The translations under genes were made by a program, and so were the position numbers. Below, in pieces: positions 1-20,614 of a stretch of DNA of 22,019 nt. The stretch is from a virus. The stretch spans positions 1-22,019 of the IMG/VR virus record IMGVR_UViG_3300027759_000471; one strand, 5' to 3'. Within the stretch, counting starts at the first letter, position 1; each line of letters begins with the position of its first letter. The notes beneath the pieces are model-generated. The model was not told where the DNA came from. It searched no databases and worked only from the letters and a program-made list of their open reading frames with translations.

Positions 1-623
1 TCATCTCGGCTGACGGGCAAACGCTTGTGGAAGTCAAAAACTACAACGCTGCTGTACGAAACAAGTTCGATAGTGAAGCCAACATCATCCCTGCGGCTGA
101 TATGGCGCAACTCATCCATGAAGCGGCAGTCCACAATATCCAAGACATTGTGCTGGCTGTTTTATTTGGGGGACAAAACTTTGAAGTGTTTAAGTTCACC
201 ATTGAAGAAGCGCAGAAAGAGCAGCTCGTCAAGGATATGGCGCGGTACTGGGGACACGTTGCGTCTAAGCAGTACCCTGAACCTGAGACTACCGAGCAAG
301 CGAAGCTAATCTATTCTGTCTCCGCACCCACAAGCATTACCGCGCCACAGTCCCTAGAGCAGATGTGCCAAGCCTTGAACTACACCAAGGAACAGCTCAA
401 GAAGTGGGAAGACGAGGAAGAGAAGCTCAAGGTGGAAATACAGAAATTTATGGGGGTCAACAGCGAATTGGTAACCCTAGACGGGCGAGTTCTGGTCACT
501 TGGAAATCAGCCAAGCCAAGCCTGAGTTTTGATAAGAAACTCTTTGAGCAGTCCATGCCAGATGTCTACAAGTCCTATGTGCGTGAGGTAGCTGGTAGCC
601 GTAGATTCTTAGTGAAAGGGTAA
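1..623 (+). CDS. YqaJ-like phage exonuclease, C-terminal part (5' end outside window)
   Basis: The frame is open from base 3, and the first codons read ISADGQTLVEVKNYNA, so the gene begins upstream of the window. The GTG at 27 is an internal valine. The DG...VEVK segment is the acid-x-lysine half of a PD-(D/E)XK nuclease active site as in YqaJ viral recombinases. These are 5'-3' exonucleases that resect double-strand ends and feed 3' single strands to an annealing protein. A helical segment around residues 115-145 (counted from the GTG; rich in K, E and L) follows, and the C-terminus is basic. A RecT-like gene, an SSB-like gene and rusA lie just downstream, which supports a recombination role. 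The N-terminal catalytic Asp cannot be seen, so the assignment rests on one motif plus context. Confidence 0.75.
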   Translation, partial: ISADGQTLVEVKNYNAAVRNKFDSEANIIPAADMAQLIHEAAVHNIQDIVLAVLFGGQNFEVFKFTIEEAQKEQLVKDMARYWGHVASKQYPEPETTEQAKLIYSVSAPTSITAPQSLEQMCQALNYTKEQLKKWEDEEEKLKVEIQKFMGVNSELVTLDGRVLVTWKSAKPSLSFDKKLFEQSMPDVYKSYVREVAGSRRFLVKG

Positions 624-625
624 TC

Positions 626-808
626 ATGCTGCTATTCAAAACAAAACGATTAGAACGCCTAGAGCGTGAAGTTGTCATGCTAGAAGACTTGTTTGCTCAA
701 GCTCTACAACGCATATCCAATCTAGAAGAGGCTCGGTGGGGTCTGAAGGTTGACGGTACTCCTAGAGCCAAGCCCGGCAGGAAGGTCAAAGATGAACGCA
801 TTTCCTAG
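626..808 (+). CDS. Small coiled-coil protein of unknown function
   Basis: This 60-residue protein starts two bases after the exonuclease stop. A good ribosome binding site (AAAGGG) lies inside the end of that gene, so the pair is probably co-translated. Residues 5-37 form a charged heptad-like helix (RLERLEREVVMLEDLFAQAL and on), followed by a basic tail (KPGRKVKDER). I do not recognise a family. The helix suggests a small oligomeric or partner-binding protein, but nothing points to a specific function. It overlaps the next gene by 17 bases. Confidence 0.7.
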   Translation: MLLFKTKRLERLEREVVMLEDLFAQALQRISNLEEARWGLKVDGTPRAKPGRKVKDERIS

Positions 809-986
809 CCCCCGTGACCCTAAGACCGGCTCTGATGACAAGGGCATGAGTCTTAGAGATTACTTTGCTGCCAAGGCTATGCAGTCCCTCATCATTCGAG
901 ATGGGGAACACGTTGACTTCCTTGAAGTAATCACAGCAACCGCCTATCAATATGCTGACGATATGTTGAGAGAGAGGGACTTGTGA
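792..986 (+). CDS. Small phage protein with GMSLRDYFAAKAMQ motif
   Basis: This is a 64-residue protein. I chose the ATG at 792 because it follows an AGGAAGG ribosome binding site; an in-frame upstream extension to 750 would lie within the previous gene. The sequence GMSLRDYFAAKAMQ (residues 18-31), followed by a helical acidic end (YADDMLRERDL), is a layout seen in many small hypothetical proteins of phages. No enzymatic motif is visible. Its stop overlaps a GTG start in a GTGA junction, so it belongs to the same translational string as the recT-like gene. Confidence 0.72.
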   Translation: MNAFPSPRDPKTGSDDKGMSLRDYFAAKAMQSLIIRDGEHVDFLEVITATAYQYADDMLRERDL

Positions 987-1069
987 CCACGCAAGATGTC
1001 GCTATATATGTGATGGCTGCATCAACAGTCATAGAAACATTCCTAACTATTTTGGAGAAATTTACATGA
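983..1069 (+). CDS. Possible 28-residue peptide coupled to both neighbours
   Basis: A GTG at 983 overlaps the previous stop (GTGA) and the frame ends in a TGA at 1067 that overlaps the recT-like start (ATGA). An AGAGAGGG ribosome binding site precedes it at about five bases. The peptide reads MTTQDVAIYVMAASTVIETF, then LTILEKFT. It is hydrophobic enough for a short amphipathic or membrane helix. It fills exactly the gap between two real genes, which favours a real coupled leader or microprotein. It is very short, so it could instead be a leader that only passes ribosomes on. Confidence 0.42.
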   Translation: MTTQDVAIYVMAASTVIETFLTILEKFT

Positions 1070-1917
1070 GTAATATCGTTGCAGTTCAAGACATGGCGGT
1101 CATGGCTGACAGTATTGTCAAGTCAGGCTTCTACGGCTTTAAGACTAAAGAACAAGTCATGGCTGTAATGCTTGTAGCCCAAGCAGAAAACAAGCACCCT
1201 GCCTCTGTCGTGCAAGAGTACGACATCATTCAAGGCAAGCCAGCTCTGAAGTCTCAAGCTATCCTTGCCCGTTTCCAACTCTCTGGTGGCTCAGTTCAAT
1301 GGGATGAGGTAACCCCTAAGAAGGTCAAGGGGACATTTAAGCACCCACAAGGGGGCAGCCTGACAGTCGAGTGGACTATCGAAATGGCAAAGCAAGCCGG
1401 TATCTACCGTGACGGTAGTGGCTGGTCTAAGTACCCTGAAGATATGCTCAGAGCTAGGGTTATTTCTAGAGCTGTGCGCTCTATCTATCCCGCTTGTATC
1501 TTGGGACACTACGCCACAGAAGAGGTCATGGACTTTGATAGCCCTATGCCAAAGCACATGGGCGTTGTAGAAGACGTTAAACAGCCCGTAGAGGTTATAG
1601 AAGACACCGGTGGTGACTACTCCCTTATCTTGCCTGATGGTCAAATCTATGCCTCTTTCCACACGCCTGAAGGATGGATTGCAGGATATGGGGAACTTGT
1701 AGGCAAAGTTATGGCTTCATCAAAGCTGTCTGATGAGCAGCGTACAGAGAAAGTAGCCAAGTTAGCCGAAGCTAATATGACTGTAACTGAGAAGTTCAGC
1801 AGTTTTGACAAAATCAAAATCAGAGCAGAGCTTGCTAATCAAGGGGTAAACCAACACCCAAAGTCACCAGCGTCCCAGTTCGTAGCCGACATGGAACACA
1901 GCGACAAAATATTCTGA
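1066..1917 (+). CDS. RecT-like single-strand DNA annealing protein
   Basis: This 283-residue protein is of usual size for RecT-type annealing proteins. Residues 30-70 contain the helical segment MAVMLVAQAENKHPASVVQE and a following ALKSQAILARF. Residues about 80-105 are beta-rich with a basic TPKKVKGTFKH stretch. Residues 118-157 carry the segment SGWSKYPEDMLRARVISRAV with a downstream GHYATEEV, which matches the RecT pattern of Trp, Pro, Met-Leu and Arg before a G-x-Y-x-x-E-E end. Such proteins coat 3' tails made by the phage exonuclease and anneal homologous strands. The ribosome binding site (TTGGAG) lies nine bases before the ATG. Placement between an exonuclease and an SSB-like gene supports the call; the ERF family is an alternative annealing-protein class. 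Confidence 0.76.
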   Translation: MSNIVAVQDMAVMADSIVKSGFYGFKTKEQVMAVMLVAQAENKHPASVVQEYDIIQGKPALKSQAILARFQLSGGSVQWDEVTPKKVKGTFKHPQGGSLTVEWTIEMAKQAGIYRDGSGWSKYPEDMLRARVISRAVRSIYPACILGHYATEEVMDFDSPMPKHMGVVEDVKQPVEVIEDTGGDYSLILPDGQIYASFHTPEGWIAGYGELVGKVMASSKLSDEQRTEKVAKLAEANMTVTEKFSSFDKIKIRAELANQGVNQHPKSPASQFVADMEHSDKIF

Positions 1918-2084
1918 ACCATTTGCAAAACGTAGGCTCACTAACTCCAATGGACGCATTACAAAACTATGGCTCATTTAGGCTTGCAGCCCATATCGAA
2001 TATCTTAGGAAGCAAGGACATCCAATCCTTACAACTATGGTTAAAGAGGGTGGGCGCGAGTATGCCCGATATATCTACCGTTGA
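1914..2084 (+). CDS. Small helix-turn-helix protein (HTH_39-like), non-ATG start
   Basis: In this frame the product reads LNHLQNVGSLTPMDALQNYG, then SFRLAAHIEYLRKQGHPILT and EGGREYARYIYR. This is the pattern of small phage winged-helix proteins (LTP-x-x-AL, RLAA-x-I-x-x-LR-x-x-GH, terminal ARY). The first ATG (1950) would cut away the first helix, which is clearly encoded upstream in the same frame. The best start is the CTG at 1914, which overlaps the recT-like stop as CTGA; a TTG at 1923 is the alternative. Neither has a strong ribosome binding site, so coupling to the upstream gene is likely. The role is probably DNA-binding regulation of the early module (inference). The fold call is solid, the exact start is not. 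Confidence 0.66.
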   Translation: MNHLQNVGSLTPMDALQNYGSFRLAAHIEYLRKQGHPILTTMVKEGGREYARYIYR

Positions 2085-2094
2085 AAGGAAAATC

Positions 2095-2382
2095 ATGGAA
2101 AACCAAAAAAAACCCCCGTTTGTCCCGCTTGAGATGAAAGGGCGAATGACAAAGAACACCTACAAAAAACAGGGTTCTTCCGAGCCAGACTGGAAAGGCA
2201 CGTTCATGTACGAAGGGCAAGTCATTACCTTTGGCGCATGGGAGAACGATGCTGGCTACGGTGTCTACTACAACATCAAAATCAACGACCCTAACTGGAA
2301 CAAACAACAGCAGCAGTACCCTAAAGAGGTAACTGACAAACCGGTCAAGTCTTATCCAAAAGATAGTGACGTGCCATTTTGA
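2095..2382 (+). CDS. SSB-like single-strand DNA binding protein with acidic C-terminal tip
   Basis: This 95-residue protein starts at an ATG preceded by AAAGGA. The same frame is open further upstream, but that part overlaps the HTH gene and is not needed. Residues 33-68 (WKGTFMYEGQVITFGAWEND and following YYNIKIN) look like beta strands of a small nucleic-acid-binding fold. A Q/K-rich linker follows, and the last six residues are DSDVPF. That end mimics the DDDIPF tip by which bacterial SSB recruits recombination and replication partners. Being between a RecT-like gene and rusA fits ssDNA handling. The body is shorter than a full OB-fold SSB, so it may be a distinct small family. Confidence 0.7.
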   Translation: MENQKKPPFVPLEMKGRMTKNTYKKQGSSEPDWKGTFMYEGQVITFGAWENDAGYGVYYNIKINDPNWNKQQQQYPKEVTDKPVKSYPKDSDVPF

Positions 2383-2768
2383 CGGCTAGCTTCTCTCTTC
2401 CGTTTCCCCCAAGCGTTAACACCTATTACCGTAACTTTCGCGGTCACATGGTGATGAGCGCCAAGGGAAGGGAGTTCAGAGAGGCTGTCCAAGTATTTGT
2501 AATTGAGAACAACATTCCTAAGTTTGGGGACAAAAAATTGAAACTAACACTAATTCTGCGTCCTAGAGACAAGAGAAAAATAGACATTGACAACCGTATC
2601 AAAGCGGTACTTGATGCACTAGAACACGCTGGAGTGTTTGACAACGACTTCCAAGTTGACCACATTGAGATGATTCGAGGAGAGCAAATCAAAGGTGGGC
2701 TGCTTCATGTGGTCATAGAAGAAATAACCCCCCGCCATCCCGAAGGTGAGTCCCTAGAGGACAGTTAG
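2379..2768 (+). CDS. rusA: RusA-family Holliday junction resolvase
   Basis: This 129-residue protein has the usual RusA size. It cuts four-way DNA junctions as a metal-dependent dimer. The N-terminus SLPFPPSVNTYYR (residues 6-18) and the segment KIDIDNRIKAVLDALEHAGV (67-86), with NDFQVD after it, give Asp69, Asp71 and Asp90. These match the catalytic Asp70, Asp72 and Asp91 of the E. coli enzyme, and Lys75 matches its conserved Lys76. The start is a TTG overlapping the SSB-like stop (TTGA). The next ATG would remove the NTYYR motif, so TTG is well supported. It resolves recombination intermediates made by the upstream exonuclease and annealing protein. Confidence 0.92.
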   Translation: MTASFSLPFPPSVNTYYRNFRGHMVMSAKGREFREAVQVFVIENNIPKFGDKKLKLTLILRPRDKRKIDIDNRIKAVLDALEHAGVFDNDFQVDHIEMIRGEQIKGGLLHVVIEEITPRHPEGESLEDS

Positions 2769-2777
2769 GAACGTGAC

Positions 2778-2800
2778 GGGGCAGCGTTTCGGGTAGCCCC
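2778..2800 (+). promoter_or_regulatory. Possible intercistronic hairpin
   Basis: The only sizeable gap in the plus block (2769-2824) contains GGGGC (2778-2782) and GCCCC (2796-2800), able to form a five-pair stem over a 13-base loop. No U-run follows, so it is not a standard terminator. It could protect a processed mRNA end or be chance. Confidence 0.22.
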
Positions 2801-2824
2801 ACTAATTCATAAACAAAGGAAATC

Positions 2825-3613
2825 ATGGAATCAATCCCAATCCCAGAAGTCGGCAACATGGAAATACCGCCAGAGAAGAACCACATCTTTGTAGCGACAC
2901 CAATGTACGGTGGTCAATGCTTTGGCTTCTTTACCCAAGGCTGCTTACAGTTTCAAAAGCTGGCTATGAATAACAACATAGACCTGACGTTCTCTTTCCT
3001 CTTTAATGAGTCTCTGATTCAGCGAGGACGCAACCTATTGGCTAACGCTTTTCTGAAGTCTAAATGCACCCACATGCTCTTCATTGACTCAGACATACGG
3101 TTCATTCCAGAACACATCTTGCCAATGATTGCTGCTGACAAGGACATCATCTGCGGTATCTATCCTAAGAAGGAAATCAACTGGCAGACAGTCAGAAACG
3201 CTATGGCAGCCGGTGTGCCTGATGGCGAACTAAAGAACCATACAGGCAACTTTGTTGTGAACCTTGTGAACTATGAGGAAACAGTCACAGTTCCAATCGG
3301 TGAACCCTTGGAAATCTGGAATGGTGGCACAGGCTTTATGCTCATCAAGCGCGAGGTCTATGAAGGTCTAGTAGGGAAACTACCTACATACCTCAACAAT
3401 GTGATGGACATACAGAACCCACAGAACGGGGAAAGAATCAATGAGTTCTTTGCTACTTGCATAGAAGAGGAATCAGGACTCTTACTCTCTGAGGACTACT
3501 ACTTCTGTAAGAAAGCTAGAGAGCATGGCTTTACAGTATGGGCAGCGCCTTGGGTAGACCTAGCCCATGTCGGCACATACGCCTTTGAGGGTCAGCTTCT
3601 CAAGACTCCATGA
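2825..3613 (+). CDS. GT-A-fold glycosyltransferase
   Basis: This 262-residue protein starts at an ATG after AAAGGA. It opens with a strand HIFVATPMYGG (20-30). It carries the metal/nucleotide-sugar DxD signature as FIDSD (86-90), preceded by LIQRGRNLLANAFL. Residues 166-176 (NGGTGFMLIKR) match the glycine-rich acceptor-side strand. SEDYYFCKKAREHGF (222-236) gives the family 2 ED motif, and His248 in AHVG may complete the metal site. The enzyme should move a sugar from a nucleotide donor. The target could be DNA, virion protein or host surface glycan, and the sequence does not say which. Its stop overlaps the next glycosyltransferase (ATGA), so the two act together or in sequence. Confidence 0.82.
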   Translation: MESIPIPEVGNMEIPPEKNHIFVATPMYGGQCFGFFTQGCLQFQKLAMNNNIDLTFSFLFNESLIQRGRNLLANAFLKSKCTHMLFIDSDIRFIPEHILPMIAADKDIICGIYPKKEINWQTVRNAMAAGVPDGELKNHTGNFVVNLVNYEETVTVPIGEPLEIWNGGTGFMLIKREVYEGLVGKLPTYLNNVMDIQNPQNGERINEFFATCIEEESGLLLSEDYYFCKKAREHGFTVWAAPWVDLAHVGTYAFEGQLLKTP

Positions 3614-4395
3614 GGTTTGTAGTTACCGCACCCCCGTATAGCGATAAGTCTGCGGGGATTGTGATGCTCTACACCCTACGAGATGAGCTAAAAGGCTTGG
3701 GCTATGACGCTGAAATCATGCCGTTTGAAAAGCCTATCACTATCCCTGATGACGCAATAGTTGTTTATCCTGAAGTGGTTGATGGCAACCCTTTAGGGGC
3801 TAAGAATGTGGTGCGGTACTACTTAAACAAGGAAGGCATGGCTTCTGGCAACAAAGTCAATGCCTCTCCCAATGACTTCATATTAGCGTTTAACAAGCTC
3901 TATTATGAAAATCCTCATGCAGTTATTCGATACGAAAATTTCAATCCTCATTGCTATTTTGGGAATAAGTTAACTTTCAACAGAAAACTAGACTGCACCT
4001 ATATTGGCAAGGGAAGTATGTACTCAGATGAGTGCAAGGTTATAGAGGGAACTATTGAGATAACTAGAACAGCGCCATCAGAGAAGGAAGGATTAGCCGA
4101 CTTGCTGAGACAGACTCGGTTTTTTTTTACTTACGATATTTGCACCGCCTTAGTTTCAGAAGCAATAATTTCGGGAGCTATTGCAGTTCCTTTATTATTT
4201 CACCCCTATAAGGCTGAAGAACTAGAGTATCCATTTGGCTCTATTGTTGGAAACTCTATCCACATACCGCAAGACTATGAGCAAAGGCGCGGAGCATTTA
4301 TTGCTACAGCTACAGGATATGACCTAGCCAAGCAAACAAAATACTTTGCTCAGAAGGCTATTGCTCACTTTAGCGGCAGCCCCAACGCTTCCTAG
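3610..4395 (+). CDS. GT-B-like glycosyltransferase
   Basis: This 261-residue protein is translated from an ATG overlapping the stop of the GT-A enzyme. The N-terminus MRFVVTAPPYSDKSAGIVML resembles the first strand and glycine loop of GT-B enzymes. A second half from about residue 128 begins CTYIGKGS and includes LADLLRQTRFFFTYD (162-176), then ALVSEAIISGAIAVPL (180-195). That is the usual donor-site pattern of a sheet end followed by an SEA-x-x-x-G-x-x-P helix. A run of nine T (4120-4128) encodes the three Phe residues at 171-173 and is a possible slippage site, but the frame is intact. The enzyme is shorter than typical GT-B proteins (350 or more residues), so the N-terminal domain is reduced. 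Its 3' end overlaps a minus-strand gene by 26 bases. Confidence 0.62.
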   Translation: MRFVVTAPPYSDKSAGIVMLYTLRDELKGLGYDAEIMPFEKPITIPDDAIVVYPEVVDGNPLGAKNVVRYYLNKEGMASGNKVNASPNDFILAFNKLYYENPHAVIRYENFNPHCYFGNKLTFNRKLDCTYIGKGSMYSDECKVIEGTIEITRTAPSEKEGLADLLRQTRFFFTYDICTALVSEAIISGAIAVPLLFHPYKAEELEYPFGSIVGNSIHIPQDYEQRRGAFIATATGYDLAKQTKYFAQKAIAHFSGSPNAS

Positions 4396-4594
4396 CAGCC
4401 TTGCCTCGCTCACCTTTCCAGTTCTTAGAACGGGCGCAGAAAGACTTGTGGCGAGGTCCTGACTTAGTTGGTGCTTTGAGCTTGCTGCCGGTAGCTTTGT
4501 TGTACTTAGCCCGACCTTTAGCAGTCAAGCCACCACCAGCCTTGACAGATAACTTCTCGCCTCTGCCGACAGAGAGATTAGTTTTTCTAGTCAT
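4370..4594 (-). CDS. Small basic DUF6321-like phage protein
   Basis: This 74-residue, strongly basic protein has only two acidic residues. The segment RGEKLSVKAGGGLTAKGRAK (11-30), followed by YN (31-32) and later KSFCARSKNWKGERGKAA (50-67), matches my memory of a phage family of unknown function (DUF6321). Two Cys (53 and 73) sit in the basic C-terminal half. The ATG at 4594 shares one base with the stop of the upstream 48-residue gene (TAATG). The gene ends inside the convergent glycosyltransferase gene. A nucleic-acid-binding or packaged role is possible from its charge, but that is inference. Confidence 0.8.
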   Translation of the reverse strand: MTRKTNLSVGRGEKLSVKAGGGLTAKGRAKYNKATGSKLKAPTKSGPRHKSFCARSKNWKGERGKAARKRWGCR

Positions 4595-4740
4595 TAGCGT
4601 TTGGACTTTCTCTTAGCGGTCTTTGCAGAGCGCTTAAATGCTGCCGCAGTAGGGTAGCCCTTTTGACCGGGCTTCTTAGCAGGAAGACCCGCTTTCCTAC
4701 GCTTGTTGATGTTGTAGTACAGACCTTTTTTAGCTGGCAT
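4594..4740 (-). CDS. 48-residue highly basic protein (MPAKKGLY type)
   Basis: This short gene encodes MPAKKGLYYNINKRRKAGLP, AKKPGQKGYPTAAAF and KRSAKTAKRKSKR. It has 17 Lys/Arg and no acidic residue. Small proteins starting MPAKKGLY and ending in an AFKxSAKTAK tail are common in phages and lack a known function. The start overlaps the end of the endolysin gene by 11 bases, and the stop overlaps the next ATG by one base. It was identified by reading the gap on the minus strand, and the overlap pattern matches the rest of the block. It may bind nucleic acid, but this rests on charge alone. Confidence 0.77.
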   Translation of the reverse strand: MPAKKGLYYNINKRRKAGLPAKKPGQKGYPTAAAFKRSAKTAKRKSKR

Positions 4741-5182
4741 GGTATTGCTCCTCTGTCAATATACCTATCTTGTATTTTCCTTCAGGCTTGTAAATTGTCA
4801 ATCCTTGCTGGCGCATCTCAGGGGCAAAGGAGAGGTGCATCCACCGACCGTATTCGTGTATGAGTTGGTCAAATTTGATGTTGTTTTTTAGAACAAGCTG
4901 ACATAGCGCGTAAGGAGTGTGAGCAGTAGAAGAGCAGTCAATAGCCCAACCATCCATGTGGCTGGATACTTTAGAACCGCCAACAGCCACATTGACATCA
5001 GGCAAGCGTAGCCAAGAATTAACACGAAGAGCGCCTGTGACATTTCGGACTGCCTCCAACTGATTCGCAGCCGACTTCATGTTTTCTAGTTGTCTCTCGT
5101 CTGGCTGATTGTTAATGTGCATCCGAATAGCTGTCTCGCTATACGTTGCCTCATCAAGACTGAAGTGTTCGCTTAGATTCAT
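4730..5182 (-). CDS. Endolysin, M15-family zinc peptidase
   Basis: This 150-residue protein is a single-domain peptidase of the Peptidase_M15 type, which cuts peptide cross-links or stems in peptidoglycan. The N-terminus SEHFSLDEATYSETA is the usual opening of these phage enzymes. The core reads LRVNSWLRLPDVNVAVGGSK (52-71), then SSHMDGWAIDCSS (73-85), and RWMHLSF (113-119). His75, Asp82 and His116 are the expected zinc ligands, and Glu110 is a candidate catalytic residue. There is no signal peptide or transmembrane helix, so release should depend on the holin encoded just upstream. Its ATG overlaps the holin stop (ATGA). Confidence 0.87.
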   Translation of the reverse strand: MNLSEHFSLDEATYSETAIRMHINNQPDERQLENMKSAANQLEAVRNVTGALRVNSWLRLPDVNVAVGGSKVSSHMDGWAIDCSSTAHTPYALCQLVLKNNIKFDQLIHEYGRWMHLSFAPEMRQQGLTIYKPEGKYKIGILTEEQYHAS

Positions 5183-5574
5183 TTCTTTACCTTGTCGGCT
5201 ATCTTCTCAAAAGTACGACCACCGAAATAAAACGACATCACTACCATGCCCCAATTTCCTAGCAACTCTACATAGTTACCCCTAGTTTCAAAATCAAACA
5301 TGGAAGCAATAGCAAACCCTGTATATGCCAACAAAAGGAATATTAGAACCATTGGGCGTATGTTCTTAGACAACCAAGAATCAGAACCCATGTCTGCTTT
5401 GAGTCGTTCAGTCAACTCATGTTGCTCAGACACATCTGCATTGAGTTTGGCTAACTCGCCATTTTGTTGCATCTCAAGTAGCTTGAGTTTGGCTTGCTCT
5501 GCTTGTGCTGGGTCTGGAAATACCTTGTCTAGTATCTTCCCACCAATGTCTATAAGTGCGCCTATTGGAATCAT
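5179..5574 (-). CDS. Holin, 3TM (GTA-holin-like) type
   Basis: The protein has 131 residues. Residues 5-19 form an amphipathic helix, followed by a charged coiled segment (24-60) and two clear membrane helices at about 74-93 (PMVLIFLLLAYTGFAIASMF) and 101-117. The C-terminus FYFGGRTFEKIADKVKK is typical of the three-TM holin family first described in gene transfer agents. Holins open the inner membrane on schedule and let endolysin out. The gene sits directly before the M15 endolysin with an ATGA overlap and directly after a small membrane gene with another ATGA overlap. Confidence 0.82.
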   Translation of the reverse strand: MIPIGALIDIGGKILDKVFPDPAQAEQAKLKLLEMQQNGELAKLNADVSEQHELTERLKADMGSDSWLSKNIRPMVLIFLLLAYTGFAIASMFDFETRGNYVELLGNWGMVVMSFYFGGRTFEKIADKVKK

Positions 5575-5738
5575 TTGTTTTCCTTTAGTTCCTGTTTAAG
5601 TTTACGAAGTTCCTTAATCTCTCGCTTGAGCTGCGCCTTCATGTATAGCGTTTCTATGTAGGCAATGCTTGTTGTTGCAACAATAATACATAACGCTAAT
5701 ACGCTCAGAATCCATCCGATAAGACGCGCAGTTGCCAC
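5571..5738 (-). CDS. 55-residue membrane/coiled-coil protein of the lysis cassette
   Basis: A GTG at 5738 opens a frame that ends in a TGA overlapping the holin ATG (ATGA). The start lies within the 3' end of the upstream gene (34-base overlap). A GGGTGG stretch lies about five bases before it; another GTG at 5747 is possible. The product has a single membrane helix at about residues 6-29 (LIGWILSVLALCIIVATTSI) and a basic, heptad-like tail (MKAQLKREIKELRKLKQELK). This is an inner-membrane protein with a short coiled coil, as in spanin-like or antiholin-like accessories. It is too short to cross the periplasm alone. The function is unknown; the coupling strongly suggests a lysis role. Confidence 0.62.
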   Translation of the reverse strand: MATARLIGWILSVLALCIIVATTSIAYIETLYMKAQLKREIKELRKLKQELKENK

Positions 5739-14459: not shown

Positions 14460-14903
14460 TTATGAGGCGTAGTAAGGGACTTTGACAACAGTAGCATTGG
14501 CTAACTGAATTTGAATGTATCCAGCAGGGACAAGAGGCAAACTAGATGTTGCAAATGTTGCACTTGCAGCAGTTGTGTTAGTCACGGTCACATTAGCCAC
14601 CACGTTGCCAGCCGTGATAGCTACCGCATTAGAGTTCTGAGTTGACATCGTGCCAAGACCAGATACCGCAGAATTAGCAATAGCAATGGCTACGTTAACA
14701 GCATTAGTGACTTGACCCTGTGCATTTATGGTGACCTGAGAGACAGTATTAGCAGAACCGTAGGTTGCAGCAGTAACAGCAGTATTAGCAAGCGAAATTG
14801 TGCCTGTCCCCGTTATAGGACCACCAGTAAGCCCAGTACCCGTTGCTATGTTCGTTACTGTGCCGTTAGTTCCACCGCTACTAATTGCTACTGTTTTTAA
14901 CAT
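14460..14903 (-). CDS. Tail fibre-like short protein (GTGLTGGPIT type)
   Basis: This 147-residue protein contains VTNIATGTGLTGGPITGTGT (16-35), a motif found many times in phage tail fibres and appendages, followed by strand-rich Ala/Val/Thr sequence and QVTINAQGQVTNAVNV. The C-terminus reads PAGYIQIQLANATVVKVPYY, a pattern of small tail-appendage proteins. It is too short to be a whole fibre and may form a trimer or attach to one. It is placed directly after another small beta protein and before the membrane gene. Confidence 0.66.
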   Translation of the reverse strand: MLKTVAISSGGTNGTVTNIATGTGLTGGPITGTGTISLANTAVTAATYGSANTVSQVTINAQGQVTNAVNVAIAIANSAVSGLGTMSTQNSNAVAITAGNVVANVTVTNTTAASATFATSSLPLVPAGYIQIQLANATVVKVPYYAS

Positions 14904-15246: not shown

Positions 15247-15534
15247 TTAACTTTGGTCAGTCTGATTAAGATTCTCGTCACGAAGTTGTATCTCTTCATC
15301 TGTCATTGGAACTTGTACATATTTAACAAACCATTGACCATCAATTGTTTCTACCCCGTCAGCAACAAATTTGTAATTTTCTTGGGGCGCTGTAAGAGTT
15401 GGGTAATGCAAAATAGCAAACCCAAATGGAGAGACATTTTGGTCTGCCAATAGCTCTGGAAAAGATGTGTTTGGATGAGCAATACGAAACCGCTCCTCCG
15501 ACATTTTTTGTTGTGTGTAGATGTTAATTAACAT
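15247..15534 (-). CDS. Possible tail fibre assembly-type accessory protein
   Basis: This 95-residue protein starts at an ATG after AGGA. After a short lead the sequence reads VSPFGFAILHYPTLTAPQEN and then KFVADGVETIDGQWFVKYVQ, ending in TDEEIQLRDENLNQTDQS. A beta sheet followed by Trp and a charged helical end is the layout of small proteins placed beside tail fibre genes, some of which help fibre folding. It sits right after the large beta-propeller gene, which is the position expected for an assembly helper. No specific family can be proven from sequence. Confidence 0.6.
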   Translation of the reverse strand: MLINIYTQQKMSEERFRIAHPNTSFPELLADQNVSPFGFAILHYPTLTAPQENYKFVADGVETIDGQWFVKYVQVPMTDEEIQLRDENLNQTDQS

Positions 15535-15541
15535 ATTTTTC

Positions 15542-17356
15542 CTATGTTTTAGTCATAAGGAACATACGACCAGACCCTGAACGACCCGTCACAACAACTC
15601 TATTGTTGAAGCAACCAAGGCTATAAAGAACGATTCCTGACGCTTGAGAAGGAACGCCCGTATCATTAGTCCAAGTAACTCCACTATCAATACTAAAATA
15701 TACTGTTCCAACAGCCGTACTAGCATAAATGATGGATGTTGATATTGCTCCTACACCATAAAACGCATCAGTTGTACCTGATGTTCTTGATGTCCAAGTA
15801 ATAGCGTCTGGTGAAGTAACGATAGCCCCATTAGCCCCAACAGCAACATATTGAGCACCAGTCCAGCACACGCCAAAAAATGTTTGAACAACACCAGTTG
15901 CTACAACCGTCCAAGAACCAGTTTGCCCTGTTGTTGAGTACGAAAGGTTACCCGCAAAACTAGCGCTTGTCATTACAAACTTACCGTTTCCAAAACAAAC
16001 ACCGTAACCAGTATTCGTAAAAGAATAGTAACTCCAAGTTATTCCATCAGCAGAATAGCCAGCGCCACCACCAGCAGTACCCATTACAAAACCTTGCCCA
16101 GCGCCCCAAGCAATTCCGAATCCTGCGGCAGAACCTTGTCCAGTTGTTGCAAAACTCCAAGTTGTTCCATCATCCGAGGAATACCAAACGCCTGTTCCAG
16201 CTTTTGTAGCAACCCATCTGTCTAGTGTTGGAGAGTATGCAATACCACCAATATTTTGGTTAGCCGCTACTGCCGTGCCTAAACTCATTAGTCTCCATGT
16301 ACTAACATTCCCAGTTGCTTTAGCGAGTAGAGCGACACTACCAACCATCGTAATGTCATTACTAGATTTATAACCAGAGTTATAAATGTAAAAACCTCGA
16401 CCACCGTCGTATCCAAGATACCAAGTTAATCCATCGGTAGACCAAATTATGTAAGCCGCAGTACCAGTAGCAGAAGTTACAACAAATCTATCATTTGACC
16501 AAGTTAGACTCTGATAAGTTGGAGTTGTAGAACCCGGAATAACAACCGACCAAGTAACACCACCATCTGTTGAAAGACAAATAGTCCCTGATGCCCCGCC
16601 TACAGCTACAGTTGTACTACTAGTTTTAAAAGCCGCGCAATTAAGAGAGGTGGCTACTCCTGAAGTTCTAGAAGTCCAAGTTGTGCCATCAGGAGAAGTC
16701 AAGATAACTCCACTAGCACCAGCAACAACATACAAAGAACCTGTCCAACAGATACCATTAAGAGTTGTAGCAACGCCAGACGTTCTAGATGTCCATGTCA
16801 CACCATCAGGTGATGTAAGAATAACTCCGGAAGCTCCGACCGTTACAAATAATGAACCACCCCAAACAATACCAATAAGATTTGTGACTACACCAGATAC
16901 TCTAGTTGTCCATGTAGTGCCATTAGACGAAGTAATAATTGTTCCTGCATTACCTACTATTGCAGTAAGATTTAAGCTGGAAGAACAACCAACAGTATAA
17001 AGATTATTAACCGTTCCACTTGTTTGTGATGTCCAAGTTACAAAGTCTGTAGATGTATATACCGTTCCAGTAGCACTACAAGCAACAACTGTGGTGGTAT
17101 TACCAAGGTAATTTAAACCTAATGGCGAGTTAGTTAACCCAGATGTAGAAGCACTTATAAAATTTCTGTAATCAGTTGTAGATTCAAGCGTGACACCTCC
17201 GCCAACGCCAATATAAAAAGTGCTATTTGATGAGTTGTATAAACCTTGATAAGCGGCAAATGAGCCTTGGCTTGGACCTGATATTTGAGAAGTCCAAACA
17301 GAAGGTGGTGGCGCAGAAGCCCCCGCAGCAGACAAAACAATGTCTCTTGATGTCAT
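15542..17356 (-). CDS. Asp-box beta-propeller tail protein, probable receptor-binding protein (604 aa)
   Basis: After an N-terminal MTSRDIVLSAAGA leader, typical of phage tail proteins and probably the virion anchor, the protein is made of about 14 repeats of 39-46 residues. Each repeat has S-x-D-G-x-T-W (Asp-box). The key Trp is at 21, 108, 149, 188, 227, 269, 312, 354, 400, 441, 482, 521 and 562, with a degenerate Phe near 66. Fourteen repeats fit two seven-bladed propellers. Asp-box propellers occur in sialidases and in carbohydrate-binding proteins, but no catalytic Arg triad or YRIP motif is visible, so a binding role is favoured. Position among tail genes supports host receptor recognition. 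The ATG overlaps the upstream stop (ATGA). Confidence 0.78.
   Translation of the reverse strand: MTSRDIVLSAAGASAPPPSVWTSQISGPSQGSFAAYQGLYNSSNSTFYIGVGGGVTLESTTDYRNFISASTSGLTNSPLGLNYLGNTTTVVACSATGTVYTSTDFVTWTSQTSGTVNNLYTVGCSSSLNLTAIVGNAGTIITSSNGTTWTTRVSGVVTNLIGIVWGGSLFVTVGASGVILTSPDGVTWTSRTSGVATTLNGICWTGSLYVVAGASGVILTSPDGTTWTSRTSGVATSLNCAAFKTSSTTVAVGGASGTICLSTDGGVTWSVVIPGSTTPTYQSLTWSNDRFVVTSATGTAAYIIWSTDGLTWYLGYDGGRGFYIYNSGYKSSNDITMVGSVALLAKATGNVSTWRLMSLGTAVAANQNIGGIAYSPTLDRWVATKAGTGVWYSSDDGTTWSFATTGQGSAAGFGIAWGAGQGFVMGTAGGGAGYSADGITWSYYSFTNTGYGVCFGNGKFVMTSASFAGNLSYSTTGQTGSWTVVATGVVQTFFGVCWTGAQYVAVGANGAIVTSPDAITWTSRTSGTTDAFYGVGAISTSIIYASTAVGTVYFSIDSGVTWTNDTGVPSQASGIVLYSLGCFNNRVVVTGRSGSGRMFLMTKT
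16640..16960 (-). repeat. Tandem 117-base repeats coding for propeller blades
   Basis: The blade sequence (GVILTSPDGVTWTSRTSG type) recurs at a strict 117-base (39-residue) spacing: the matching GTTCTA/ACTCTA positions are 16665, 16782 and 16899. Adjacent copies encode almost identical protein, but the DNA differs at many third codon positions. Confidence 0.75.
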
Positions 17357-17784
17357 TTGACATCCTTACCTAAAACTAAGCCTGTCCATGTCGTTCCACC
17401 GTCATAGGTGAAAAAACCTAAAACGTCACGACCAGAGGTTGTCAATGTAGGCGCTGTACCGCCAGCCCACTTAGTGCCAGACCACCATGTAATGTTTGAC
17501 CCTGAGTTAGTCAAATCAAGAATCATGCTGTAAGCCGTGCCTGATGTCGGCACATTGCTTACCGTGAATGTTGTAGCGCCACTAATTGTCTTGCTGTAAT
17601 AGTTTCCAAGAGAACAGTCAATATTGCTTGCAGAAATTGCAGATTGAACTTCTTTAATTGCGGCAACAGTATTGCCCAAAGCAACAGAAGTGTTACCAAG
17701 AGTCAAAGCTGTGGCAAAGTTAGAGTCAAGCTGAGAAAGCGGAATTGCCGTTGTTGCTGTTGCAAATGTATATGGAACTGCCAT
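17353..17784 (-). CDS. Small tail protein (MAVPYTFATATTAIPLSQLD type)
   Basis: The protein has 143 residues. The first 30 (start MAVPYTFATATTAIPLSQLD, then NFATAL) are a very common opening of phage tail-fibre or tail-appendage proteins. Ala/Val-rich helix follows (AAIKEVQSAISASN). The C-terminal half is beta-rich (YYSKTISGATTFTVSNVPTS), ending in FFTYDGGTTWTGLVLGK. That end carries a single GGTTW resembling the Asp-box of the following gene. It probably helps attach the propeller protein, which is made from the overlapping ATGA start, but this is inferred from position. Confidence 0.65.
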   Translation of the reverse strand: MAVPYTFATATTAIPLSQLDSNFATALTLGNTSVALGNTVAAIKEVQSAISASNIDCSLGNYYSKTISGATTFTVSNVPTSGTAYSMILDLTNSGSNITWWSGTKWAGGTAPTLTTSGRDVLGFFTYDGGTTWTGLVLGKDVK

Positions 17785-17785
17785 G

Positions 17786-19762
17786 TTAGAACCTCGTCCT
17801 TAATTCGTGTTCGTACTCGAACCCGTTGATTACAAAATTTGCGCCCGTTGATGTTACGGTCATACCCAAATACTTGCCCCATTGCTTTGCATCGGTCTTG
17901 TATAGGGTATACCCTCCACCACCAAACCAAGAAATTACTGCCGAACTGTTGTTTACCCAAGGAATTGGCGTACTCAGATTATTAATCCAATCAACCAATT
18001 CGCCAAGCACTACAGGCGTACTAGAGCCACTCTCTGAATCCACAGTCACCGTTATCTCGGCAGCATTGGTTAAGGTAGCCTCAATACCTACCTTCAAGGC
18101 TTGCTTGGTGCGTATTGGGTCTTTCATTGAGTTCAATGAAGTTTGGACATAGCTGTTAATAGCAGAAGTCGAATCCGAATACAGACGCACACAAGAGTTG
18201 CCGTTTGAACCGTAGAGATTAATCTTGCCACCTAGAGGAGCAGAGGCGATATAAGCTAAGTCGTTGCCAGCACTTGTGAAGAACCACTTTTTCTCAAAGA
18301 AAATGGCTTGTATGTACCGACTAGAACTAGAAGTGCCAAGTCCACCCGTATATTTAAAGTTGAAGGCAGCGCACAGAATGTTGTTTAGCAAGACCTGACC
18401 CGCATAGACGGGGTAGTCAAAATCAATGTAAGGGAAAACCCCATCAAGAGAATCTGAGACTTTAGTTGTTGTAGAACCGACTAGGGCATAAATACCATAG
18501 TTGTTCATAAACAAAACAGACCTGAAATAAGGGTAAATAGCGTATGGCAACTTAGAACCAACAGACGCGCTGACGTTGGTATTGGTAAACAGCGTTGTGC
18601 CAGCAGTAGTTACCCGAACATCTGAGAAGACATTAATTGAATCGTCACCAAAGATGTAGAGGAAGTTGTTAGCCGATAAGAGCTGAGTAATGTTGCCATG
18701 CAAGGTTGCATCAGTCAGAGTAACTGCACCCGCAGAAATGCTTGTAAAGTCGCTGTACGACCCCGCAGCCGAATAGGTGACTGTGCGTCCATTGGCTATC
18801 CAAACACGACCTGAAAACGACTGGATGCCTACTACCGGCTCTACATTAATGATTGCCTTGGCTGTGGCGTTAGTTCCACCACCACCAGCTATGGTCACCG
18901 TGATGTTAGAAGAGTTGGTGTAGCCGCTACCGACATTGGTCATTACGACTTGGGTAACGATTCCACCAGAAACAATGCCTTGACCAGCAGCATTAGTGCC
19001 GCCACCACCAGCGATAGTGACAGTCAGGTTAGACGCATTGGTATAACCCGTGCCACCAGCAGTCACTAAGACTGAGACTGTTCCTGTTGCAAAAGTGGTA
19101 ATCCCTGCTACTGCATTAGCACCAGAGCCACCGCCACCATTAAATGTGACGGTAGGAGAGCTTGTATAGCCTGTTCCCGCCTCTGTAATTGTGATGGAGG
19201 ACACGGTGTTAGCCGTGATGGTTGCCACAGCCGTAGCCTGTACGCCATTAGCCGAGTTAGGGGCTGAAATAATGACTGCTGGCGCAGACGTATATCCTGT
19301 ACCCCTTTGTACAAGACCGACTTGACCAACAGCGCCAATAAAGATTAGGTTTGTGCCATCCCAAGTAAAGTAACCCTTTGCAGGGTCACCAATTAAAACA
19401 CGGTCATTCTTCCATTGGGAGATGTTGACACCAGACGCGCTAAATGTTCCAGCAGCGCCAATTGTCCCCTTGGCATTTGTATCCAAGCGCACATACTCAG
19501 CCGAGCCATCTGCTTGAAACGCCAAAAGGTAATCAGTCAAACCAATGTTGGCTGAACAATAGAAAGTGACTGTATTAGAGAAAGTGACGCTACCTACATT
19601 GGAATAGGTAGGCGTAATCTTGATATTGCCATAACCAATAGGCATAGCGTTCTCAAGCCAAAAGAACTCGGAATCGTCAATAGCCGTTCTGTTCGCTTTG
19701 GTGTTTACACCCTTGAACTGTTTGACAACCTCGTAGGATTTTTTTTGCTCTGCGGCTGCCAT
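17786..19762 (-). CDS. Tail nozzle-like protein with inserted G-x-GYT repeats (658 aa)
   Basis: The N-terminus QFKGVNTKANRTAIDDSEFF, with WLENAMPIG after it, resembles the opening of podovirus tail proteins that cap the portal/adaptor (P22 gp10-like or tail nozzle). Residues about 120-145 (RVLIGDPAKGYFTWDGTNLI) and about 312-340 (VGIQSFSGRVWIANGRTVTY) look like one core split by an insert. The insert (about 150-310) has four repeats centred on GTGYT or GSGYT at 154, 196, 237 and 278, with AGGGGTNA loops. The rest is beta-rich up to the end. It follows the adaptor-like gene, as expected for a short tail. Confidence 0.68.
   Translation of the reverse strand: MAAAEQKKSYEVVKQFKGVNTKANRTAIDDSEFFWLENAMPIGYGNIKITPTYSNVGSVTFSNTVTFYCSANIGLTDYLLAFQADGSAEYVRLDTNAKGTIGAAGTFSASGVNISQWKNDRVLIGDPAKGYFTWDGTNLIFIGAVGQVGLVQRGTGYTSAPAVIISAPNSANGVQATAVATITANTVSSITITEAGTGYTSSPTVTFNGGGGSGANAVAGITTFATGTVSVLVTAGGTGYTNASNLTVTIAGGGGTNAAGQGIVSGGIVTQVVMTNVGSGYTNSSNITVTIAGGGGTNATAKAIINVEPVVGIQSFSGRVWIANGRTVTYSAAGSYSDFTSISAGAVTLTDATLHGNITQLLSANNFLYIFGDDSINVFSDVRVTTAGTTLFTNTNVSASVGSKLPYAIYPYFRSVLFMNNYGIYALVGSTTTKVSDSLDGVFPYIDFDYPVYAGQVLLNNILCAAFNFKYTGGLGTSSSSRYIQAIFFEKKWFFTSAGNDLAYIASAPLGGKINLYGSNGNSCVRLYSDSTSAINSYVQTSLNSMKDPIRTKQALKVGIEATLTNAAEITVTVDSESGSSTPVVLGELVDWINNLSTPIPWVNNSSAVISWFGGGGYTLYKTDAKQWGKYLGMTVTSTGANFVINGFEYEHELRTRF
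18835..19310 (-). repeat. Four G-x-GYT repeats (41-42 residues each) within the nozzle-like gene
   Basis: The motif occurs four times with spacings of 42, 41 and 41 residues. The last two copies share the loop TVTIAGGGGTNA exactly. These look like a small beta domain repeated as an appendage. Confidence 0.72.
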
Positions 19763-19765
19763 ATC

Positions 19766-20614
19766 TTAGAACGGTGTGGAGTACGGGGTTGGTATCCTTC
19801 TTGTAAACACAGATACCAATACCGATTGAGTTTTTTGCTTGTACTGCTGCAAATAGATTTCAGCTTCACCAAACGATTGTTCGTAGTATTTGGCAAGGTG
19901 AGCCGCATAAAACTGAACAACAGTATCGTATGGTTCATTGATGGTATCTGTATCAGTCAGATTAACCATAGTAGTTGGCAAAATAACCGTGTCCAAGTCA
20001 ATCACATAGGCTTGGTCTGGTACTGGTCCGACATAAATTTGAGATTGACCATAAATGCTAAAGCAAATAGGTCGCTGAACATTGTTCTGCCAATAACGCA
20101 ATTGAGCATTAAAGTCAGTCCAAGGCAAATACCGTAATGGGATTCTTGAGTTTCCCCAATACAAATTGATATTCAAAACATCTAGCGTCTGCACACCTGA
20201 TGGCAAAGCAGCGTAGTTAATGACTTCACATGGTCCTGCATACTGCAAAGTAGCCGTGCCGTCTGTGAAAGTTGTTGTTGGTGGGTAGACGTAAGTCCCT
20301 GATGGATACGGCGGTGCGGTTGAGCCAAGCACACCACCAGTTACAACTTTGTAAATATAGATGTTAGAGAAGACGTAACTGTTAGTTGTTACGGTCAGTC
20401 CAGCAGACCAGATGACTGGGTTGCTTCCACCAGCTACGGGAGTGCAAGGAGTTTGCGATACTTGAACAGTTCTCAGACACCCTGTGTCGCGCACGACACG
20501 CTCACGCGCACTATTGATATAGCCTATTAGCTGGTCATTAGTGTAGAAGTTAGCTTGCGCGTCATGCAACAAATATCTAACTTGCGTGAGATAGCCTTGG
20601 AGTGTTTGAGCCAT
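19766..20614 (-). CDS. Head-tail adaptor-like protein (SU10 adaptor type)
   Basis: The protein has 282 residues. The N-terminal helices (MAQTLQGYLTQVRYLLHDAQ, then FYTNDQLIGYINSARERVVR) are the known opening of podovirus adaptor proteins that attach below the portal. A strand-rich middle contains PLRYLPWTDFNAQLRYWQNN, a frequent motif of this family, followed by PDQAYVIDLDTVILP. The helical end (EPYDTVVQFYAAHLAKYYEQ, then SFGEAEIYLQQYKQKTQ) is also typical. Adaptors form a ring between portal and tail nozzle. The nozzle-like gene follows four bases downstream. Confidence 0.77.
   Translation of the reverse strand: MAQTLQGYLTQVRYLLHDAQANFYTNDQLIGYINSARERVVRDTGCLRTVQVSQTPCTPVAGGSNPVIWSAGLTVTTNSYVFSNIYIYKVVTGGVLGSTAPPYPSGTYVYPPTTTFTDGTATLQYAGPCEVINYAALPSGVQTLDVLNINLYWGNSRIPLRYLPWTDFNAQLRYWQNNVQRPICFSIYGQSQIYVGPVPDQAYVIDLDTVILPTTMVNLTDTDTINEPYDTVVQFYAAHLAKYYEQSFGEAEIYLQQYKQKTQSVLVSVFTRRIPTPYSTPF

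Follow-up and report, generated by a model that had tools for sequence, protein, structure and literature searches.

A probable phage tail-fibre tip adhesin with two predicted seven-bladed Asp-box propellers

A gene on the minus strand of the window, by which we mean the whole stretch of 22,019 nucleotides analysed here, encodes a protein of 604 residues that is most probably the tip adhesin on the tail fibre of a freshwater phage. As a separate chain carrying two seven-bladed Asp-box propellers, it would be one of several interchangeable adhesin types that occupy the same genomic slot.

Results

Repeat array

15542..17356, minus strand: double Asp-box propeller adhesin, 604 residues (open reading frame, 14 blade units, AlphaFold2 and Foldseek)

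The open reading frame begins with ATG and has the coordinates reported by the first-pass annotation. Hairpins of the type S-x-D-x-G-x-T-W are present at blade spacing, as in type 3 tandem Asp-box propellers. The Trp or Phe residues of the outer strands are located at positions 21, 66 (Phe), 108, 149, 188, 227, 269, 312, 354, 400, 441, 482, 521 and 562. The regular steps of 39–46 residues described in the first-pass annotation are therefore borne out from W21 to W562 (45, 42, 41, 39, 39, 42, 43, 42, 46, 41, 41, 39 and 41; mean 41.6). The degenerate blade near residue 66, which had been invoked to complete a count of 14, is real, and a second one lies at 354. The number 14 itself holds for blades but not for Asp-boxes, since W21 has no Asp-box ahead of it and belongs to a lone N-terminal outer strand (D0), regarded here as the closing strand. 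Divided behind every outer strand, the chain falls into 13 full units and a final one (570–604) that has strands A-B-C and no box. In total the array comprises 14 ABC units and 14 D strands, with approximately 10–13 recognisable Asp-boxes that continue across blade 7 without a linker.

These repeats are far above chance. A strict Asp-box pattern matches 10 times and a loose one 13 times, compared with means of 0.35 and 1.43 and maxima of 4 and 9 in 5000 residue shuffles. A blade HMM, built from other viral contigs with the window and its two full-length relatives excluded, recognises 11 blades at 8.7–61.7 bits; the top whole-sequence score among 1000 shuffles was 3.7 bits. Median identity between blades is 33%. 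Blades 4 and 5 are 77% identical as proteins, whereas their DNA identity is only 68%; a search for DNA tandem repeats found none. Hence, the amplification of blades is not fresh.

Relatives in viral contigs

A scan of viral contigs with the single protein found one relative only; alignments were used afterwards. The full-length relatives are a protein on contig L002 (41% identical) and XLZ15464.1 of Limnohabitans phage DC31 (34% identical). Two scans of viral contigs with Asp-box patterns yielded at least 393 confirmed relatives in the first and 197 in the second. Thus, Asp-box propeller chains are common and occur in hundreds of viral contigs, and they are also found in annotated phage tail fibres, e.g. 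of Caulobacter phage Percy.

For array lengths, arrays cut by contig ends were removed and the remainder was clustered at 70% identity, giving 127 clusters among the matches listed. Exactly 7 blades were counted in 57 of these clusters, 6 or 8 in 32 and 13–15 in 16, and arrays of 21, 28 and 42 blades occurred as single or double cases each. These lengths fit rings of seven, a statistic that carries no formal null and is affected by the choice of the sampled contigs through Asp-box patterns. Many of the 6- and 8-blade arrays probably reflect split or partly missed blades. One chain has 1670 residues and 42 blades, six times seven (L016:6450-11459); its gene follows an adapter-like gene and precedes a chaperone-like gene. 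An open reading frame of 3760 residues (L018:1869-13148) contains 49 Asp-box matches over several arrays, including arrays of 28 and 21 blades.

Predicted fold

17273..17302, minus strand: strand D0 with W21, residues 19–28 (proposed closure of the last blade of propeller 2; topology inferred)
16400..17272, minus strand: propeller 1, blades 1–7, residues 29–319 (half model and Foldseek)
15545..16399, minus strand: propeller 2, blades 8–14, residues 320–604, last blade without a D strand (full model compared with 2ymu)

The first-pass annotation had proposed two seven-bladed Asp-box propellers per chain, and the structure prediction and fold search that it suggested were carried out. Blade counts were taken from strand lists and Foldseek scores. 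When residues 1–320 were modelled alone with AlphaFold2, the model (pTM 0.83) contained 28 strands, corresponding to a closed ring of seven complete four-stranded blades. The best Foldseek matches of this half model were seven-bladed designer WRAP-T structures, with 7bie on top (TMq 0.72, TMt 0.80, rmsd 3.3).

The full-length model was built from ten chains of 14 blades aligned in register. Its mean pLDDT is 78.5 and its pTM 0.71; pLDDT in blocks is mostly 56–93, falls to 46–61 across the last ~35 residues and is weak in blades 7–8. The top match in the PDB is 2ymu (TMq 0.61, TMt 0.63, 617 columns); AIP1, Utp21 and further double seven-bladed propellers come next. A TM-score of 0.61 to 2ymu leaves the angle between the rings unfixed. 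From its title, length and description we read 2ymu as the WRAP domain of PMC9218822, whose 14 blades fold as two separate seven-bladed propellers (PMC9218822). Both models thus support the proposed architecture, and two closed seven-bladed Asp-box propellers are predicted in one uninterrupted array, with propeller 2 judged from the full model only.

Residues 1–34 are disordered in the half model, in which the seven blades are already complete, whereas residues 21–23 form a strand in the full-length model. Judging from the strand lists and Foldseek, D0 is presumably part of blade 14 in propeller 2, where its pairing would close the ring.

The fibre cassette

19766..20614, minus strand: head-to-tail adaptor (Pfam SU10_adaptor PF24175, E 6e-10)
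17786..19762, minus strand: probable tail nozzle, gp10-like, upstream of the fibre cassette (inferred from its position beside the SU10_adaptor gene)
17353..17784, minus strand: short fibre adapter, 143 residues, with the anchor MAVPYTF..IPLSQLDSNFAT and a C-terminal tip domain (CSLGNYYSKTIS..) (PHROG tail fibre matches)
17303..17356, minus strand: N-terminal leader of the propeller protein, residues 1–18 (MTSRDIVLSAAGASAPPP), putative plug for the adapter tip (pLDDT below 50; inferred)
15247..15534, minus strand: probable chaperone for tail-fibre assembly, limited to the fibre-binding part, 95 residues (relatives L225–L228)

The genes are arranged in the order nozzle, short fibre adapter, propeller protein and tail-fibre-assembly-type gene. 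The anchor of the adapter is conserved in relatives, and its C-terminal part matches phages that have an adhesin or fibre gene next. Adapter, propeller and assembly-type gene occur together as a cassette in the window, L002, DC31, L016, L059 and L077. The propeller chain has 7 blades in L059 and 42 in L016, both accompanied by an adapter and a chaperone-like gene.

The 95-residue protein gave zero matches in a Pfam search and is 45% identical to L002:5378-5758. Its relatives L225–L228 combine a similar N-terminal part with an APC-like C-terminus, as in the tail assembly chaperone family PF16778, and their genes come after adhesin genes; the gene of the window is without this C-terminal domain. 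In the chaperone of phage Pam3 the N-terminal beta-sandwich binds the fibre and the C-terminal helices trimerise it (PMC9608196). Consequently, the 95-residue protein may retain only the fibre-binding part.

Other genes of the window were also inspected. A gene of 147 residues at 14460–14903 (minus strand) shares its terminal sequences with relatives (N-terminal MLKT and C-terminal ATSSLPLVPAGYIQ..VPYY), and the length of the middle part differs strongly among them, from 147 to about 360 residues in all; its product is possibly a third variable virion protein. Positions 1–5600 contain genes for a RecT-like annealing protein, a RusA resolvase, a glycosyltransferase-like protein, an M15 peptidase endolysin and a GTA-type holin.

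Exchange of adhesins at the slot

A scan with the nozzle protein identified 80 close relatives (L145–L224) with homologues 70–93% identical. Their fibre locus is hypervariable with a constant N-terminal anchor. In those with readable fibre genes, the gene after the nozzle starts with the common anchor MAVPYTF..IPLSQLDSNFAT and takes one of two forms. It encodes a long fibre, in many cases ending in Peptidase_S74, or else a short adapter, and then a separate adhesin comes next. The separate adhesins contain Gly_rich_2 or Laminin_G_3 domains; a phmmer search with the 604-residue protein found no propeller in the slot of the nozzle relatives with readable fibre genes.

The C-terminal type of the adapter and the leader type of the adhesin co-vary in all 29 typed pairs, with zero crossed combinations, according to type patterns that were written after the data had been seen. 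Type-a adapters occur with MF[AS] leaders (14 pairs) and type-b adapters with M[ST]GI.Q leaders (15 pairs). The adhesin bodies of the type-b pairs include Gly-rich as well as LamG ones. In L002 a propeller with an MFASK leader stands behind a type-a adapter, which is the matching combination. Leaders similar to MTSRDIVLSAAGASAPPP are present in L077 (MSVRNLILNAAAPG) and phage DC31 (MDSISQKMLMGAAGAS), and the adapters of both have related C-termini.

Discussion

The tail receptor-binding role already suggested by the first-pass annotation is supported by the genomic context, because the order of the genes and the exchange of occupants at this position fit an adapter-adhesin-chaperone cassette; binding itself is putative. 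In the mechanism that we infer, including docking, ligand and stoichiometry, the adhesin would be made as its own chain and its short leader would dock onto the adapter fibre encoded upstream, at the C-terminal domain of the latter. Propeller 2 would be closed by strand D0, paired with the three-stranded last blade. The product of the next gene (15247..15534) may aid folding of the adhesin, and loops of the propeller faces would attach to a ligand on the host surface, probably a glycan.

A virion-borne enzyme of the GH74 or sialidase kind, which cleaves glycans and clears capsule or slime instead of plainly binding, was considered as well. GH74 enzymes consist of tandem seven-bladed Asp-box propellers (PMC2716378) and are present in the Foldseek list. 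Escherichia phage JohannJBalmer, moreover, has an adapter domain of this kind ahead of lateral tail fibres whose annotation includes glycosidase domains. However, the GH74 structures superpose poorly on the full model (TMq 0.24–0.41), and neither a GH74 or sialidase family match nor the catalytic residues were found in Pfam, PHROG and PDB sequence searches and a motif scan. The R-[ILV]-P motif is absent, and the 604 residues include 1 Glu and 18 Asp, many of the latter at Asp-box positions. An enzymatic function is thus unlikely, and this reading was rejected on sequence. A structural spacer or tail decoration protein that does not bind a receptor is somewhat less probable still. The nozzle protein of SU10 does have a structural propeller (PMC9509320), but the gene discussed here occupies the slot after a fibre adapter, the fold of the occupant varies among otherwise close relatives and an assembly-type gene comes next.

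Concerning the fold of this adhesin, the N-terminal position of D0, the incomplete C-terminal blade and the lack of a linker at blade 7 could also be accommodated by a single large ring of 14 blades, closed by D0 and the last blade. This arrangement is very improbable, since residues 1–320, modelled by themselves, already make up a ring of seven blades with the full set of 28 strands, the best full-length fold matches are double seven-bladed structures and arrays of 7 blades predominate among relatives. The single ring was rejected on the half model.

Two seven-bladed propellers in a separate-chain adhesin can be compared with several known systems. One is the hypothetical protein XLZ15464.1 of DC31, which likewise has an N-terminal D0 strand and a last blade without D, with a related adapter upstream and a tail assembly chaperone (PF16778) downstream. 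It differs in that the downstream gene retains the APC C-terminal domain, and it is unannotated. GH74 proteins (type 3 of Quistgaard and Thirup, PMC2716378) also combine uninterrupted Asp-box blades with two seven-bladed propellers per chain, but they are enzymes without a sequence match to the 604-residue protein and with poor whole-chain superposition. WRAP (2ymu) of Nostoc punctiforme, the top full-length fold match, shares the 14 blades in two seven-bladed rings; in contrast, it is a cellular protein with WD40-type blades that are near-identical, compared with the divergent blades described above.

Among phage receptor-binding proteins, propellers have been published for phi11 (five-bladed), PRD1 P2 and PhiKZ gp131C (seven-bladed) (PMC4901313). 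They resemble the present protein in placing a propeller at the host-binding end, but each has just one propeller, with five or seven blades, and they differ from it in sequence family and in the architecture of the chain. The ring of the phi11 protein is closed by an N-terminal strand and three last strands, comparable to the closure proposed for D0. The K1F sialidase contains an Asp-box propeller (PMC2716378), and propeller receptor-binding domains are known from eCIS fibres (PMC12923769). The first-pass annotation had considered a double Asp-box propeller unusual as a receptor-binding protein; this view does not stand, given the hundreds of viral contigs with Asp-box chains, the tail fibres of Percy and the published propellers. 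The gp38 proteins of T-even phages and S16 are tip adhesins on their own chain at the end of a separate fibre, and Gly-rich adhesins fill the same slot in relatives of the window; their fold is different from that of the 604-residue protein. The protein is largely explained by parts of known kinds. Their combination, tandem Asp-box propellers in a fibre tip that forms its own chain, did not turn up in the open-access literature searched, and term searches of this literature yielded no papers on Asp-box, Ycf48 or BNR repeats together with phage tails or tail fibres.

The co-variation of adapters and leaders could be due to genetic linkage, the two ends being neighbours on the DNA. As a tentative proposal, for which we see somewhat less than an even chance, the adapter C-terminus and the adhesin leader act as a general plug and socket. 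Phages would thereby exchange whole adhesin chains whose folds are unrelated, such as propellers of 7, 14 or 42 blades and Gly-rich or LamG adhesins, on one fibre, and propeller adhesins would grow by whole seven-blade rings.

Standard family searches missed the 604-residue protein: Pfam and PHROG scans gave insignificant matches only, even at relaxed cut-offs, and phmmer found no match in the PDB. If our assignment is right, the tandem Asp-box propeller joins the folds that serve phages as fibre tips on a separate chain, and the matching of adapter type to leader type would provide a sequence rule for finding unannotated receptor-binding proteins.
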